A DNA stretch of 64,000 nt from Candidatus Poribacteria bacterium (GTDB lineage Bacteria; Poribacteria; WGA-4E; WGA-3G): assembly GCA_022824265.1 (NCBI GenBank), contig JAJEAG010000055.1, positions 1 to 64,000 on the forward strand. The letters are read 5' to 3'. The translations under genes and the position numbers were made by a program. This document shows positions 5,671 through 20,033 of this stretch, piece after piece; within the stretch, counting starts at the first letter, position 1; every line of letters begins with the position of its first letter. The notes beneath the pieces were generated by a model. That model saw only the letters and a program-made list of their open reading frames with translations. It made no database searches and was not told where the DNA came from.

Positions 5671-5775
5671 AATGCGTTTCTTTAGGTTATTGTAGACAGG
5701 TTTCGTTCCCCATACCTACCTTTATTTGGCAGTAGCACTGTGGGACACCACAATTCAAATTTTAAGGTGGACAAG

Positions 5776-6282
5776 ATGAATAATAATAATGAATCTTATA
5801 CAGACGAAAAAGGACGCACTCGGTGGCATATTAACGATGAAATAGCGTTAAGATTTATGGAACTCCATGCCTTCTTGATTATAGCAGATTATCCCGAAGA
5901 CCATGCCTCACGCTATCCACGTTTAGCACATTCCATTTCTCGTTTTCCAGAATCAGTCGCTGATCTCGTGGAACAAGATCGGCTAATTGAGGAAATCGGT
6001 GGAGTAGGGGATATTGTCGCAACTATCATCACCGAATATCTTCAAACTGGCACCTGTTCAAAAATGGACGAATATGCAGGTGACATTCCACGATCAATAA
6101 CTGAACTCGTTCCTGTTCCAGGGTTAGGAGCGAAAACTATTAAACGTCTGTATGAAGATATTGGGATAGATAGTCTGGTATCGCTCCGCACAGCCATTGA
6201 TGAAGGAAAACTCAAAGGGTTCAAAGGTATCGGAAAGAAAACTCTTGAAAAAATAGAGGAATACCTTGATGCAAATTTATAA
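5776..6282 (+). CDS. stand-alone PolX-type N-terminal (8-kDa/HhH) module, copy 1
   Basis: The 168-residue protein matches the N-terminal part of bacterial family X DNA polymerases: an 8-kDa helical domain ending in GGVGDIVATIITEYLQTG, then a helix-hairpin-helix segment PVPGLGAKTIKRLYEDIGI and a second hairpin FKGIGKKTLEKIEEYL at the C-terminus. The palm nucleotidyltransferase and PHP domains are absent. In polymerase beta numbering the lysines K68 and K72 are both isoleucine here, so dRP-lyase chemistry is not expected; non-specific DNA binding is. The frame stays open upstream to 5740, but the ATG at 5776 follows AAGGTGGACAAG and fits the family start. A paralogue follows at 6344. Confidence 0.75.
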   Translation: MNNNNESYTDEKGRTRWHINDEIALRFMELHAFLIIADYPEDHASRYPRLAHSISRFPESVADLVEQDRLIEEIGGVGDIVATIITEYLQTGTCSKMDEYAGDIPRSITELVPVPGLGAKTIKRLYEDIGIDSLVSLRTAIDEGKLKGFKGIGKKTLEKIEEYLDANL

Positions 6283-6343: not shown

Positions 6344-6826
6344 ATGAAAGAAAAAGAACACACCGATAGACTAACCAACGATGAAATCGCCCAAAAACTG
6401 ATGGAACTCCATACAATTCTGATTGTCGCTGATTATCCGGAAGACCACGCAGCACGATATCCTCGACTTGCATATACAATCTCTCGCATGGAAGAATCAA
6501 TATCGGACTTAGTTGCTCAAGGTCGGTTGCAAGATGAAATCTCCGGTGTCGGAGATATAGTCTCAACAATCATCACCGAATATGTAGAAACTGGAACATG
6601 CTCAAAATTACAGGAATATGCAAGTGAAATACCGGAAACAATTACTGAACTAATACCAATTCCCGGACTCGGTCCCAAGACGATTAAACTTCTGTATCAA
6701 GAGGTAGGTATTGATAGTCTGCAATCACTTCAAAGCGCAATTAATGAAGACAAACTAAAAGGGGTCAAAGGTATCGGTAAAAAAACGATAGAAAATTTTG
6801 AGAAATACCTTAATGAAAATCTATAA
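6344..6826 (+). CDS. stand-alone PolX-type N-terminal (8-kDa/HhH) module, copy 2
   Basis: A 160-residue tandem paralogue of the preceding gene, with the same architecture: helical 8-kDa-like domain with SGVGDIVSTIITEY at about 67-80, HhH PIPGLGPKTIKLLYQEVGI at about 108-126, and a final VKGIGKKTIENFEKYL hairpin. The positions of the polymerase beta lyase lysines K68 and K72 are again isoleucine (I72, I76 here), so the loss is shared and older than the duplication or under common selection. No polymerase domain follows; the next gene is a MORN protein 25 bases downstream. The start ATG follows AAGGTGATGTCAAA. Confidence 0.75.
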   Translation: MKEKEHTDRLTNDEIAQKLMELHTILIVADYPEDHAARYPRLAYTISRMEESISDLVAQGRLQDEISGVGDIVSTIITEYVETGTCSKLQEYASEIPETITELIPIPGLGPKTIKLLYQEVGIDSLQSLQSAINEDKLKGVKGIGKKTIENFEKYLNENL

Positions 6827-6851: not shown

Positions 6852-7337
6852 ATGGCAAGTTCACGAGATACAGGCGAAATGGTCAATGGCAAAAAGCATG
6901 GGTATTGGGTAACTTACTACGCCACTGGCGTAAAGCGAAGTGAAGGCAACTACATTCACGGCAAAAAAGATGGAAAATGGATCAATTATCATAAAAACGG
7001 AAACAAATCAGGCGAAGCATCCTTCCGCGACGGAAAATATGAAGGTCCTTGTATAACGTATCATGAAAACGGTAATCTCAGATCTAAAGGTGTCTATCCT
7101 AAACATGAGGGTAAATCTTATGACGGGAAAAAAGAGGGACCATTTTACGGATACGAAGAAGATGGTGAAACGGTGTGGCTAATCATAACTTATAAAAAAG
7201 GTGGTAGTCGCGCGAAACCCGACGAGTATCCCCTTGGAACATGTGAAGTATGTGGTGAAGTAAGACGTTTAAATTGGGGTGATAGCTGCCCAAAATGTGG
7301 TGCAGAAATTGACGAGTCAGAAGTTATACCCAATTAA
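6852..7337 (+). CDS. MORN-repeat protein with C-terminal zinc ribbon (copy 1)
   Basis: 161 residues. Four to five MORN_2/YwqK-type repeats occupy residues 1-115 (GKKHGYWVTYYATGVKRSEG, GKKDGKWINYHKNGNKSGEA, GKYEGPCITYHENGNLRSKG, GKKEGPFYGYEEDGE). A C-terminal CxxC...CxxC ribbon follows (CEVCGE near 132 and CPKCGA near 149), likely binding zinc. There is no signal peptide. MORN_2 repeats are beta-hairpin repeats of unknown biochemical role in bacteria; YwqK in Bacillus is annotated as an antitoxin-like protein, but no toxin partner is seen here. The start follows AGGTGAAATT. The paralogue at 7500 is separated by a repeat element. Confidence 0.8.
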   Translation: MASSRDTGEMVNGKKHGYWVTYYATGVKRSEGNYIHGKKDGKWINYHKNGNKSGEASFRDGKYEGPCITYHENGNLRSKGVYPKHEGKSYDGKKEGPFYGYEEDGETVWLIITYKKGGSRAKPDEYPLGTCEVCGEVRRLNWGDSCPKCGAEIDESEVIPN

Positions 7338-7499: not shown

Positions 7500-7964
7500 A
7501 TGGCAAGTGCAAGAGATACAGGTGAAATGGTTGATGGTAAAAAACATGGATACTGGATTACCTATTTTGCCAACGGATTAAAACGTAGCGAAGGAAACTT
7601 CATTCACGGGGAAAAAGACGGAAAATGGATCCTCTATCACAAGAATGGGAATATATCCAGCGTAGCATATTTCCGAGATAATAAGTACGAGGGCGATTAT
7701 ATATGCTATCATGAAAATGGGAATCGCAAATGGGGTGGTCCCTACAAGAAACATGACGGCACATCTTCCGATGGGAGAAAAGAGGGAGTTTGGCACTGTT
7801 GGGAAGAAGATGGCGAAACGGTATGGCGTATCATCACCTATAAAAAAGGTGGTGCCCGCGCAAAACCAGACGAACATCCTTTCGGTGAATGCCACGGTTG
7901 TGGCGAAGGTATACGCTCAACGTGGGCAGATAATTGCCCAAGGTGTAACGAACCACTTAACTAA
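7500..7964 (+). CDS. MORN-repeat protein with C-terminal zinc ribbon (copy 2)
   Basis: 154-residue paralogue of the protein at 6852, sharing the first residues MAS-RDTGEMV-GKKHGYW and the final KKGG-RAKPDE block. The MORN_2 repeats span residues 1-112, and the zinc-ribbon cysteines are CHGCGE near 130 and CPRCNE near 147. There is no signal peptide. Its stop codon TAA is also the first three bases of a MITE-1 element (7962-8102), so the element inserted exactly at the end of the gene without changing the protein. The start ATG follows GAGGTGAAATT. Confidence 0.8.
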   Translation: MASARDTGEMVDGKKHGYWITYFANGLKRSEGNFIHGEKDGKWILYHKNGNISSVAYFRDNKYEGDYICYHENGNRKWGGPYKKHDGTSSDGRKEGVWHCWEEDGETVWRIITYKKGGARAKPDEHPFGECHGCGEGIRSTWADNCPRCNEPLN

Positions 7965-10212: not shown

Positions 10213-11046
10213 ATGTATTATCTAACTCGACAAATTGCCTTTGAAGCATCTCATTTCAATCGGATTCCTGAGTTGAGCGACACCGAGAACTATGAACTGT
10301 TCGGTGCTGCAGCAAATCCAAATAGCCACGGGCACAACTATGTGCTTGAGGTAATGGTTAAAGGTGATGTAGACGCAAATGATGGAATGGTCATAAATTT
10401 AACGGATTTAGATGCGTTGTTGAAATCGGAAGTAAATGCCAATTACGACCACAAGCATTTGAATAGTCAACACCCTGTTTTTTCTGCAAATCCACATTTG
10501 CTACCGACCTGTGAAAACATCACTATTGATATATGGCAACGGCTTGTAACATCTCTCACAGAGGGATTATTGCACCGAGTAAGGTTGTATGAAAGTTCAA
10601 CCACATTTGTCGACTATTACGGGGAAGATCAGATGGTTTATCACACTAAGGTATACGAATTCAGTGCAGCGCACCGTTTACACAGCCAAGTTCTTACTGA
10701 CGAAGAAAATCAAGAGATCTTTGGAAAGTGCAATAATCCTGCTGGGCATGGACATAACTATGTCCTTGAAGTTACCGTGAAAGGTGAAGTTGATGAGAAA
10801 ACGGGTCTGGTGATTGGTTTGAATGTTCTTGACGAGACGGTAGAAAAACAAGTTTATACCCGTTTTGATTACAAACATCTAAATCTTGATGCACCGGAAT
10901 TTGAAACGCTCAATCCGACATCTGAAAACTTTGTAAAAGTTCTCTGGGATGTGTTAGAACCGAATTTACGACCTGCGGTTTTGCACCGACTACGATTGAG
11001 AGAAACACCCAAGAACCATTTTGATTACTACGGAGAACCATCATAA
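10213..11046 (+). CDS. tandem-domain 6-pyruvoyltetrahydropterin synthase with split active-site residues
   Basis: Two complete PTPS-type domains are fused (about 1-138 and 143-277); the usual enzyme is a single ~140-residue domain. Both keep the zinc histidines (H14, H39, H41; H154, H179, H181) and the pterin-anchoring glutamates (E101, E127; E238, E264). Domain 2 has the catalytic cysteine (C173 in FGKCNNPAGHGHNY), but the catalytic histidine is Tyr (D219-Y220). Domain 1 has Ala33 instead of cysteine but retains D79-H80. In rat PTPS the triad is formed between subunits (Cys42 of one, Asp88-His89 of the next), so the two halves complement each other. The C-x5-HGH spacing is that of PTPS rather than of QueD (C-x3-HGH). 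It precedes folE by 3 bases. Confidence 0.9.
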   Translation: MYYLTRQIAFEASHFNRIPELSDTENYELFGAAANPNSHGHNYVLEVMVKGDVDANDGMVINLTDLDALLKSEVNANYDHKHLNSQHPVFSANPHLLPTCENITIDIWQRLVTSLTEGLLHRVRLYESSTTFVDYYGEDQMVYHTKVYEFSAAHRLHSQVLTDEENQEIFGKCNNPAGHGHNYVLEVTVKGEVDEKTGLVIGLNVLDETVEKQVYTRFDYKHLNLDAPEFETLNPTSENFVKVLWDVLEPNLRPAVLHRLRLRETPKNHFDYYGEPS

Positions 11047-11049
11047 TAT

Positions 11050-11658
11050 ATGAATACTGAGCAAGATAGTGAAGCAGATCATAAAAATGATTTACAGGAT
11101 ATGTCAGCGAATTTAGAATCGCTTTACACGCAGATTCTTGAAAATCTGGATGAAGATCCTAAACGTCAAGGCTTGATAAAGACACCACACCGTGCCGCAA
11201 AAGCGTTAGAATTTCTAACAAGCGGTTATAGACAAGATATCAACAAAATAATAAATAATGCTATCTTTGACGAAGATTTCGATGAAATGGTCATTGTCAA
11301 GGATATTGAGTTTTATAGTCTTTGTGAACATCATATCTTACCTTTTTGGGGGAAATGCCATGTCGGTTATCTCCCACGAAAACAGATTATCGGTCTCAGC
11401 AAAATACCGAGAATTGTGGACATGTTTGCAAGACGCTTACAGGTACAGGAACGCTTAACCCGCGAAATTGCTGAAGCACTGCAAGAAACGCTGGATCCAA
11501 CAGGTGTCGGTGTCGTTATGGAGGCACAACACATGTGTATGATGGCACGCGGGGTTGAAAAACAAGCCTCAAAGATGACAACAAATGCTATGCGGGGCAC
11601 TTTTCGTAGCGACAGTTTAACACGCTCTGAGTTTCTGAGGTGTATACAAGTTTCTTAA
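11050..11658 (+). CDS. folE: GTP cyclohydrolase I
   Basis: 202 residues, typical length. The zinc and catalytic ligands are present: C92-E-H94-H95 in [20 protein letters not shown] and C163 in [14 protein letters not shown], together with the substrate-site block [17 protein letters not shown]. It converts GTP to 7,8-dihydroneopterin triphosphate, the substrate of the PTPS encoded 3 bases upstream. Translational coupling is likely. The first 20 residues are a variable polar tail, as in many homologues. With the PTPS and the SDR downstream it points to a biopterin-type rather than a purely folate pathway. Confidence 0.96.
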
Positions 11659-11732: not shown

Positions 11733-12485
11733 ATGTCAACACAAAACAGTCTCAACACACTACAACCATATAATCTTGAAGGAAAAGTTGCGGTTGTCAC
11801 TGGGGCATCTAAGGGTATTGGAAAGGCAATAGTTGATTCCTTAGCAGATGCTGGAGCAAAGGTTGTCCTTGCAGCGCGCACACGTGATGTTGTTGAACAA
11901 GCCGCAGCAGACCTAAGAGACACAGGCGCGGAGGCAATTGCTGTCCCCACCGATGTAACAGATGTTAACGCTGTTCAGAATCTCATACAACAAACAGTAG
12001 ACACCTATCAAAATATAGATATTCTAATCAACAACGCAGGAAATGGAATATTCGGAACTGTTGAAGATTTTGATCCTGTAGATTGGGACAGTGTCATCAA
12101 TTCAAATTTGAAGGGTGTATTCCTCTGTGCAAAATATGCACTTCCGCATCTGTTAGCAAATGGTGGAGGACAAATTATCAACGTGCTTTCAGTCGCTGCG
12201 AAAGTTGCATTTCCTGCATCAAGTGCATATTGTGCTGCAAAAGCAGGCGCGCTTGCATTAACCAAAGTTCTGGCTGCTGAAGTCCGCCATCAGAATATCC
12301 GAGTGACAGCAGTCCTACCCGGCTCCGTTGAAACACCATTTTGGGATGATATTTCACAACATCCTGACTTTGAAAAAATGCTCAAACCGGAACATGTCGC
12401 AAATACTGTGTTGTCAGTATGCCAACAGCCCTTAGGAATGGTTACGGAAGAAATTGTTGTAATGCCACCCCTCGGAATATTGTAA
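11733..12485 (+). CDS. short-chain dehydrogenase/reductase, possible sepiapterin-reductase role
   Basis: 250 residues, classical SDR. The Rossmann glycine motif TGASKGIGKAI begins near residue 24, NNAGNGIFG near 92, and the catalytic S...YxxxK is in VLSVAAKVAFPASSAYCAAKAG (about 150-170). The Pro-Gly motif VLPGSVETPFW follows. The arginine after the second strand (AARTRD) suggests NADP(H) preference. By sequence it is close to 3-oxoacyl-ACP reductase-like SDRs, which have many substrates. Its position 74 bases after folE and PTPS suggests it reduces 6-pyruvoyltetrahydropterin or sepiapterin; this is inference from context. Start ATG at 11733. Confidence 0.85.
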   Translation: MSTQNSLNTLQPYNLEGKVAVVTGASKGIGKAIVDSLADAGAKVVLAARTRDVVEQAAADLRDTGAEAIAVPTDVTDVNAVQNLIQQTVDTYQNIDILINNAGNGIFGTVEDFDPVDWDSVINSNLKGVFLCAKYALPHLLANGGGQIINVLSVAAKVAFPASSAYCAAKAGALALTKVLAAEVRHQNIRVTAVLPGSVETPFWDDISQHPDFEKMLKPEHVANTVLSVCQQPLGMVTEEIVVMPPLGIL

Positions 12486-19022: not shown

Positions 19023-20033
19023 ATGGTAGATAGATATGATATTCTTGCAATAGGTAGGAGTTCCATAGACCTGTATTCCAACGATGTTGGGATACCTTTT
19101 CCTGAAATTACGAGTTTTGGAGCATTCGTTGGAGGATGTCCTACAAACATAAGTGTTGGAACACGTCGTCTTGGACTTAAATCAGTCCTTCTCACCGCAG
19201 TAGGTGATGATCCTGTAGGGGAATTCCTGCTTAAATTCTTAAATGATGAAGGTGTTGAAACACAATTCATTGCCAATAAACCTGGGCATCGTACAAGTGC
19301 TGTTGTTCTTGGAATTGAACCACCTGATCGATTTCCACTTATTTATTACCGTGATAACTGTGCAGATATTGAACTCACAATTGACGATGTGATTGCTTCA
19401 CCGATTGCAGAAAGTCGCGCCGTGTTGATTTCTGGAACAGGACTCAGCAAGGAACCCAGTCGAAGTGCTACGATGTATGCAGCAGAACAGGCAAAAGCGA
19501 TGGGAAGTCAGGTATTTCTGGATTTAGATTTTCGGGCAGACCAGTGGCATGACCCACGCGCTTTCGGTGTCTGCGTTCGACCTACCTTATGCAATGTTGA
19601 TATTGCAATTGGAACAGAAGAAGAGATTAAGGCTGCATCTCTCACCGATGTTTCACAGATGTCAATAGAACATTCCCAAATCTCAAATCCTACTATTGAA
19701 GGAGATATGGACATCGCTGTTGCAACAATACTGAACGCAGGTGCTAATGCACTTGTCGTGAAACGTGGTAGTGACGGGGCAGACATCTATCTAAAAGATG
19801 GTGAAATCATACATGCAGAACCTTTTCCAGTTGAAATCTATAACACACTCGGTGCCGGGGATGCATTCGCAAGTGGATTTATCTACGGCATCTTAAACCG
19901 ATGGGATTGGAAAAAAGCAGCCCGTCTTGGCAATGCAACCGGAGCAATTGTCGTCACACGACACGGATGTGCAAACTTCATGCCTACCATGGCAGAAGTC
20001 AATACCTTTGTTGAACAAAGAGGCGGATTATAA
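19023..20033 (+). CDS. iolC: 5-dehydro-2-deoxygluconokinase (PfkB family)
   Basis: 336 residues of a PfkB sugar kinase. The opening VDRYDILAIGRSSIDLYSN and the block FGAFVGGCPTNISVGTRRLGLK are characteristic of IolC, and the ATP/anion-hole motif NTLGAGDAFASGFIYG with catalytic Asp lies near residue 280. It phosphorylates 5-dehydro-2-deoxy-D-gluconate in myo-inositol degradation. It is directly followed, 30 bases on, by iolD, which makes its substrate precursor, so both are probably in one transcript. The ATG at 19023 has a poor ribosome site (GGTCAGGAT). The other pathway genes iolB, iolG and iolJ are not in the window. Confidence 0.9.
   Translation: MVDRYDILAIGRSSIDLYSNDVGIPFPEITSFGAFVGGCPTNISVGTRRLGLKSVLLTAVGDDPVGEFLLKFLNDEGVETQFIANKPGHRTSAVVLGIEPPDRFPLIYYRDNCADIELTIDDVIASPIAESRAVLISGTGLSKEPSRSATMYAAEQAKAMGSQVFLDLDFRADQWHDPRAFGVCVRPTLCNVDIAIGTEEEIKAASLTDVSQMSIEHSQISNPTIEGDMDIAVATILNAGANALVVKRGSDGADIYLKDGEIIHAEPFPVEIYNTLGAGDAFASGFIYGILNRWDWKKAARLGNATGAIVVTRHGCANFMPTMAEVNTFVEQRGGL

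Follow-up and report, generated by a model that had tools for sequence, protein, structure and literature searches.

A tandem gene for 6-pyruvoyltetrahydropterin synthase (PTPS) in Candidatus Poribacteria encodes two domains between which the catalytic Cys-Asp-His triad is divided. Comparison with its relatives makes it highly probable that the gene derives from a tandem pair with shared active sites, in which one mixed site (alpha, the Cys of copy 1 with the Asp-His of copy 2) has decayed and the other (beta, the Cys of copy 2 with the Asp-His of copy 1) has been kept. The gene lies in a stretch of 64,000 nucleotides, which as a whole is referred to here as the window. The hosts of the fused enzyme are sponge-associated and related bacteria.

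A PTPS triad divided between two domains

Two PF01242 domains were identified in the 277-residue protein (Pfam, E 7e-57, 191 bits in total against a cut-off of 22.4), which is a member of the PTPS/QueD family (PF01242, COG0720). Both domains could be aligned to human, rat, and C. elegans PTPS, and residue equivalences were read from the alignment to the rat enzyme (Cys42, Asp88-His89, and Glu133 in rat numbering). The following features of the window are all on the + strand.

10213..11046, +: tandem PTPS gene (6-pyruvoyltetrahydropterin synthase), 277 aa
10213..10632, +: domain 1, residues 1-140, without the catalytic Cys; proposed Asp-His donor
10252..10254, +: His14, domain 1 zinc ligand
10309..10311, +: Ala33 (GCA), domain 1, at the rat Cys42 position
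10327-10329 and 10333-10335, +: His39 and His41, remaining domain 1 zinc ligands
10447..10452, +: Asp79-His80 (GAC CAC), domain 1, at rat Asp88-His89; proposed live half
10591..10593, +: Glu127, domain 1, at rat Glu133; pterin anchor
10633..11043, +: domain 2, residues 141-277, with the catalytic Cys; its own Asp-His replaced by Asp-Tyr
10672..10674, +: His154, domain 2 zinc ligand
10729..10731, +: Cys173 (TGC), domain 2, at rat Cys42; proposed live half
10747-10749 and 10753-10755, +: His179 and His181, remaining domain 2 zinc ligands
10867..10872, +: Asp219-Tyr220 (GAT TAC), domain 2, at rat Asp88-His89; decayed half
11002..11004, +: Glu264, domain 2, at rat Glu133; pterin anchor
11050..11658, +: folE, GTP cyclohydrolase I, 3' of the tandem PTPS gene on the same strand
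11733..12485, +: SDR oxidoreductase gene, 3' of folE on the same strand

The rat alignment confirmed the positions given in an earlier, sequence-only reading of this DNA, which had described Ala33 and D79-H80 in domain 1 and C173 and D219-Y220 in domain 2. Its statement that the zinc histidines and the pterin-binding Glu are intact in both domains also held, with three zinc-binding histidines found in each (H14/H39/H41 and H154/H179/H181) along with E127 and E264. The triad is incomplete within each domain, as domain 1 lacks the Cys and domain 2 lacks the His, and it is complete only across domains, for which reason we call the protein a variant rather than an ordinary member of the family. 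Two tandemly duplicated pairs of neighboring genes were also noticed by eye in the window (5740-6282 with 6344-6826, and 6852-7337 with 7500-7964), encoding a helix-hairpin-helix-like protein and a repeat-rich YwqK-like protein.

The explanation we favor starts from two ancestral PTPS genes in tandem, the products of which would have shared active sites. If the triad is intersubunit, as described for PTPS (Burgisser et al. 1995, cited in PMC2229834), an enzyme made of two copies can form mixed sites of two kinds, alpha and beta. Alpha would have decayed in Poribacteria and in two further phyla (B and C) through loss of its Cys, its Asp-His, or both, with beta retained. Ala33 and Tyr220 would then both belong to a single decayed site, one half each, instead of marking two half-dead sites that help each other, and Cys173 with Asp79-His80 would form the working triad, assembled between protein chains. 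This explanation rests on residues, conservation, the order and direction of loss, and gene context; from these we infer contact, activity, and product.

Conservation and decay in three phyla

Among 66 distinct tandem proteins from Poribacteria, none has Cys at rat position 42 of domain 1, where A, S, T, V, M, E, or K is found instead. The Asp88-His89 pair of domain 1 was kept in all 66 (and was also invariant in a set of 61), with synonymous codons in use at both residues (GAT 50/GAC 16 at the Asp and CAC 49/CAT 17 at the His). The Cys of domain 2 was likewise present in 66/66, and at the position of its own His89, 50 proteins have Tyr, 14 have His, and 2 have Phe. It follows from this conservation that domain 1 keeps an Asp-His pair that is unusable with a Cys of its own, and that domain 2 keeps its Cys while its own His drifts. 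Judged across these homologs, the complementary pattern of the window protein is more than chance. The sequence-only reading had treated the losses as strictly reciprocal and had named non-reciprocal homologs as evidence against it. Such homologs were found, since 14/66 poribacterial proteins retain the domain 2 His, and together with sister lineages that decay otherwise they rule out strict reciprocity as a rule. We read these 14 as half-decayed intermediates, because the residues lost all come from the same site.

Several further features of the poribacterial proteins were observed. Glu11 of domain 1 (window 10243-10245), three residues before the first zinc His, is invariant (66/66), and Ser occupies this position in domain 2 and in most phylum B copies. 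Two deep Poribacteria of family f7 (L082:3587-4438 and L083:3698-4522) have Glu at the domain 1 Cys position, close before HGH, which resembles the PTPS-III motif. In one genome (G019) the tandem gene is split into two reading frames (L010), through either a sequencing error or true fission, and several genomes of family f3 (L099, L107-L110) encode a third, short PTPS-like protein with PHNHYW in place of HGHNY.

The search for relatives returned further fused tandem PTPS genes as well as pairs of adjacent, unfused PTPS genes. The comparison covered 175 distinct pairs in three phyla, namely 66 fused pairs in Poribacteria, 46 in phylum B, and 63 in phylum C, the last two consisting of unfused adjacent genes sampled from 58 and 95 genomes, respectively. 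Most phylum B genomes carry such pairs: both copies are intact in 19, the copy 1 Cys is replaced in 7, and both the copy 1 Cys and the copy 2 Asp-His are replaced in 20, the latter by Asn-Tyr, Asp-Tyr, or Glu-Tyr. In phylum C, 59 pairs have Leu or Ala for the copy 1 Cys and an intact copy 2, and four (L254-L257) have an intact copy 1 and Asp-Arg in copy 2. The four pairs that lack the copy 2 His (C..DH / C..DR) fall in genus g316, and other members of family f243 lack the copy 1 Cys. The first two phyla had suggested that loss of the copy 1 Cys must precede loss of the copy 2 His, an order contradicted by L254-L257.

The two halves of beta (Cys2 and Asp-His1) were intact in 175/175 pairs, although pairs within a phylum are not independent, and those of alpha (Cys1 and Asp-His2) in 19/175 across the three phyla. 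Losses thus hit either half of alpha and never beta. By parsimony, changes within phyla numbered two for Cys1, seven for Asp-His2, and none for either Asp-His1 or Cys2. In a tree test on the first 124 pairs, all seven Asp-His2 changes fell where Cys1 was lost and Asp-His1 kept (P ~0.012); this is a modest test, and the strength of the case is in the unanimity and the independent routes of decay rather than in the P value. The proposal that Cys from domain 2 and Asp-His from domain 1 act as a unit is therefore well supported, the unfused pairs and a phage-like copy (see below) included. The further suggestion that fusion had divided the triad was rejected, because unfused neighboring genes show the same split.

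Most of the unlinked single PTPS genes in this survey have retained Cys together with Asp-His, and 28/39 have the full set of eight residues; the remainder comprises genes of QueD type or incomplete at His23, genes resembling copy 1, and distant ones. Three solitary PTPS genes (L168, L173, and L174) group with copy 1 and combine an intact Asp-His with Asp in place of the Cys; they are possibly copy 1 living without a partner.

A second tandem PTPS of genome G028 lies on a 144-kb phage-like contig, which also encodes a phage-type primase, DNA polymerase III alpha, and DNA methylases.

L322:9047-9796 (-) and L323:16806-17357, 19113-19793: phage-like contig with tandem PTPS, folE, and queC (genome G028, 144 kb)

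Domain 1 of this copy has lost the zinc and pterin ligands, the Cys, and the Thr-Thr-Glu segment and has kept Asp-His-Lys, leaving Asp-His as the sole survivor among its triad and zinc residues. In domain 2 the Cys and zinc ligands remain, and Arg-Asn takes the place of Asp-His. The motif spacing of this copy is C-X3-HGH. Matches in plasmid and phage collections were for the most part single and QueD-like, and scans of viral contigs found no further tandem PTPS copies. The presence of folE and queC together with the tandem gene on this contig suggests a 7-deazaguanine pathway, possibly for DNA modification.

The domain 1 site may not be inert, because the zinc ligands (65/66) and the Glu are retained in Poribacteria. 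One reading therefore adds a second function to the favored explanation, with beta carrying out the PTPS/QueD chemistry and the domain 1 site turned to another reaction or into a pterin-binding regulator. The copy 1 zinc ligands are kept in the other phyla too, the Glu133 equivalent of domain 1 is kept in 64/66 poribacterial proteins, and the invariant Glu11 and the Glu at the Cys position in L082 and L083 (compare PTPS-III) would also fit such a role. However, several different residues are found at the Cys position, which is not what a retained catalytic residue would show, no substitute for an aldolase is needed where FolB is present, and the phage-like copy drops the domain 1 site entirely. 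On balance we regard a second function as rather unlikely.

Other tandem lineages and the predicted assembly of the ring

In a tree of the individual domains, first copies and second copies separated into two groups (SH-aLRT 90 and 86) with few exceptions, namely domain 1 of L144 and domain 2 of L148 and L149. The deep branches are weakly supported (SH-aLRT 80-90), and the tree fits, with moderate support, one old tandem duplication with later fusion. The tandem fusions L142-L149 appear to descend from the same duplication as the poribacterial gene and to follow the opposite rule, in which a copy pairs with itself. Domain 2 is complete (Cys and Asp-His) in all eight; domain 1 has lost Asp-His and kept its Cys in L144, L145, L148, and L149, and has lost both in L142, L143, L146, and L147. 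Because domain 1 has lost Asp-His while domain 2 is complete, copy 2 must pair with copy 2 in these fusions, and pairing thus differs among lineages.

The same rule could be applied to the window protein, with domain 2 pairing with domain 2 of another chain as the sole catalytic part, Tyr220 standing in for the His, and domain 1 persisting as a structural or regulatory remnant. Loss in L142-L149, which in four of them takes the domain 1 Asp-His first, lends this some weight, as does the full set of residues in domain 2 of 14/66 poribacterial proteins. However, it leaves unexplained why the domain 1 Asp-His is kept in 66/66 Poribacteria and is invariant in three phyla without a Cys of its own, why Cys2 stays constant when the His of the same domain has become Tyr, Phe, or Arg in various pairs, and why the phage-like domain 1 retains Asp-His alone among its triad and zinc residues. 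For the poribacterial enzyme we consider pairing within copy 2 improbable and return to a triad shared between the copies.

An AlphaFold2 model of the single chain (pLDDT 94.7, pTM 0.89) has two T-fold domains, with the last strand of domain 1 at residues 131-135 and the first of domain 2 at 141-154, leaving a short linker of about five residues (136-140). In Foldseek searches, a single domain best matched human and rat PTPS (TM ~0.94, target-normalized; ~40% identity), and both domains jointly matched urate oxidase (TM ~0.45 over ~300 columns). As we read the fold, its two chain ends are both on the outer face; this, the short linker, and the joint match to urate oxidase suggest that the two domains are ring neighbors, side by side in one ring. 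The sequence-only reading had placed live and dead sites alternately around the ring, which is literally impossible in the known PTPS ring, since this is three-membered; two such trimers are joined head to head, and the active site lies where three monomers meet (PMC7546909). Three positions cannot be shared out evenly among chains of two domains each, so the likeliest assembly would be even-numbered, a ring of four domains like that of urate oxidase rather than a PTPS trimer. Nar and coworkers reportedly found in 1994 that His89 of rat PTPS is contributed by the opposite trimer. Across rings, domain 1 would face domain 2 in Poribacteria, bringing Cys173 into predicted contact with Asp79-His80, and domain 2 would face domain 2 in the other lineages; the ring register is a possible cause of this difference in pairing.

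Predicted function and relation to known enzymes

The product of FolE, dihydroneopterin triphosphate, is the substrate of PTPS-family enzymes and is most likely what the tandem protein converts. In poribacterial loci with enough flanking sequence, folE was found within 300 bases of the tandem gene in 31/33 and the SDR gene within 1500 bases in 32/33; an SDR gene is also found near unfused PTPS pairs outside Poribacteria. The genome from which the window comes is 96.7% complete and encodes FolB, QueC, and QueF, and a PF01242 search identified the tandem gene as its sole member of the family, with no PTPS-family gene beyond these two domains and thus no other QueD beside QueC and QueF. No aromatic amino acid hydroxylase was found in this genome, so supplying a cofactor to such an enzyme was rejected as a role. 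Substitution for dihydroneopterin aldolase in the manner of PTPS-III was also ruled out for the window protein, given that FolB is present and that Ala or Cys, not Glu, occupies the motif. With QueC, QueF, and FolB present, and neither a hydroxylase nor a further family member, QueD activity is the most likely contribution of the tandem enzyme; the phage-like copy with folE and queC points to this role as well. The output would be the 6-carboxytetrahydropterin (QueD) step of preQ0/queuosine synthesis and/or 6-pyruvoyltetrahydropterin. Domain 2 has the motif of the PTPS-II (tetrahydrobiopterin) type, C-X5-HGH (C173-X5-H179), domain 1 has Ala at that place, and the QueD motif C-X3-HGH is absent from the window protein; the PTPS-II-like spacing makes the product prediction uncertain, and the adjacent SDR gene would allow a tetrahydropterin role. 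That both sites are inactive and kept for structure or regulation is very unlikely, for although neither domain alone holds a full triad, this is the only PTPS-family gene of a nearly complete genome with QueC and QueF, it is linked to folE, and Cys2 and Asp-His1 are invariant.

The closest known enzymes share parts of this arrangement. Rat and human PTPS (PTPS-II, C-X5-HGH; PDB 1b66, 1gtq, 3i2b) have the same fold, zinc ligands, and Glu, and their motif is shared by domain 2, but they are homohexamers, built from identical chains of one domain each and having six equivalent sites, in contrast to the two non-equivalent domains described here, with half a triad each. E. coli QueD belongs to the same family and probably has its pathway role in common with the tandem enzyme, but it is a single domain with C-X3-HGH instead of C-X5-HGH and a full triad in its one kind of subunit. 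Urate oxidase likewise has two T-fold domains per chain, to which the two-domain model aligns; it has no zinc and no Cys-Asp-His triad and catalyzes a different reaction, so the likeness is one of layout only.

In bimodular QueF (Vibrio cholerae and E. coli), active-site elements are split between tandem T-fold domains and the catalytic Cys is found only in the second (PMC5372742). The tandem PTPS, with catalytic residues divided between tandem T-fold domains, is bimodular in the same sense. QueF is a precedent but a different enzyme, a nitrile reductase, in which the site is described as lying within one chain and the assembly as lacking a central tunnel; neither an unfused gene-pair stage nor a phage copy appears in the available part of that account (PMC5372742). 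Plant GTP cyclohydrolase I is likewise a tandem T-fold duplication, though another enzyme and eukaryotic, and neither of its domains is reported to work alone (Basset et al. 2002, via PMC5372827 and PMC6411382). The need for both domains is experimental in that case, whereas for the tandem PTPS it is deduced by comparison. The principle of a divided active site is therefore already known in the T-fold superfamily. No description of a tandem PTPS was found in the open-licence literature searched, and within that literature the PTPS version, the unfused pair form, the graded series of decay, and the phage-like copy appear to be undescribed.

Taken at its broadest, the comparison would describe a widespread heteromeric PTPS/QueD in several phyla, in which a degenerate partner serves mainly to donate Asp-His to the Cys site of the other. 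It would be encoded by neighboring genes in two phyla, fused in Poribacteria into an even-numbered, urate-oxidase-like ring in place of the PTPS trimer, and present in stripped-down form on the phage-like contig that also carries folE and queC, with sister lineages pairing in the opposite way. We put forward this full combination tentatively, as one that may well not hold in every part.

The intersubunit PTPS triad is known from a homohexamer, where sequence cannot reveal shared sites. Here, residues that are invariant across three phyla show which parts of the two copies work together, and the series of unfused pairs would record the stepwise decay of a redundant site. With the halves so labeled, mutating and mixing the copies in bacteria would be a simple test of the intersubunit triad. 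The tandem enzyme would offer a clear case of paralogous ring enzymes becoming obligate partners, and in Poribacteria it would fill a likely QueD gap.
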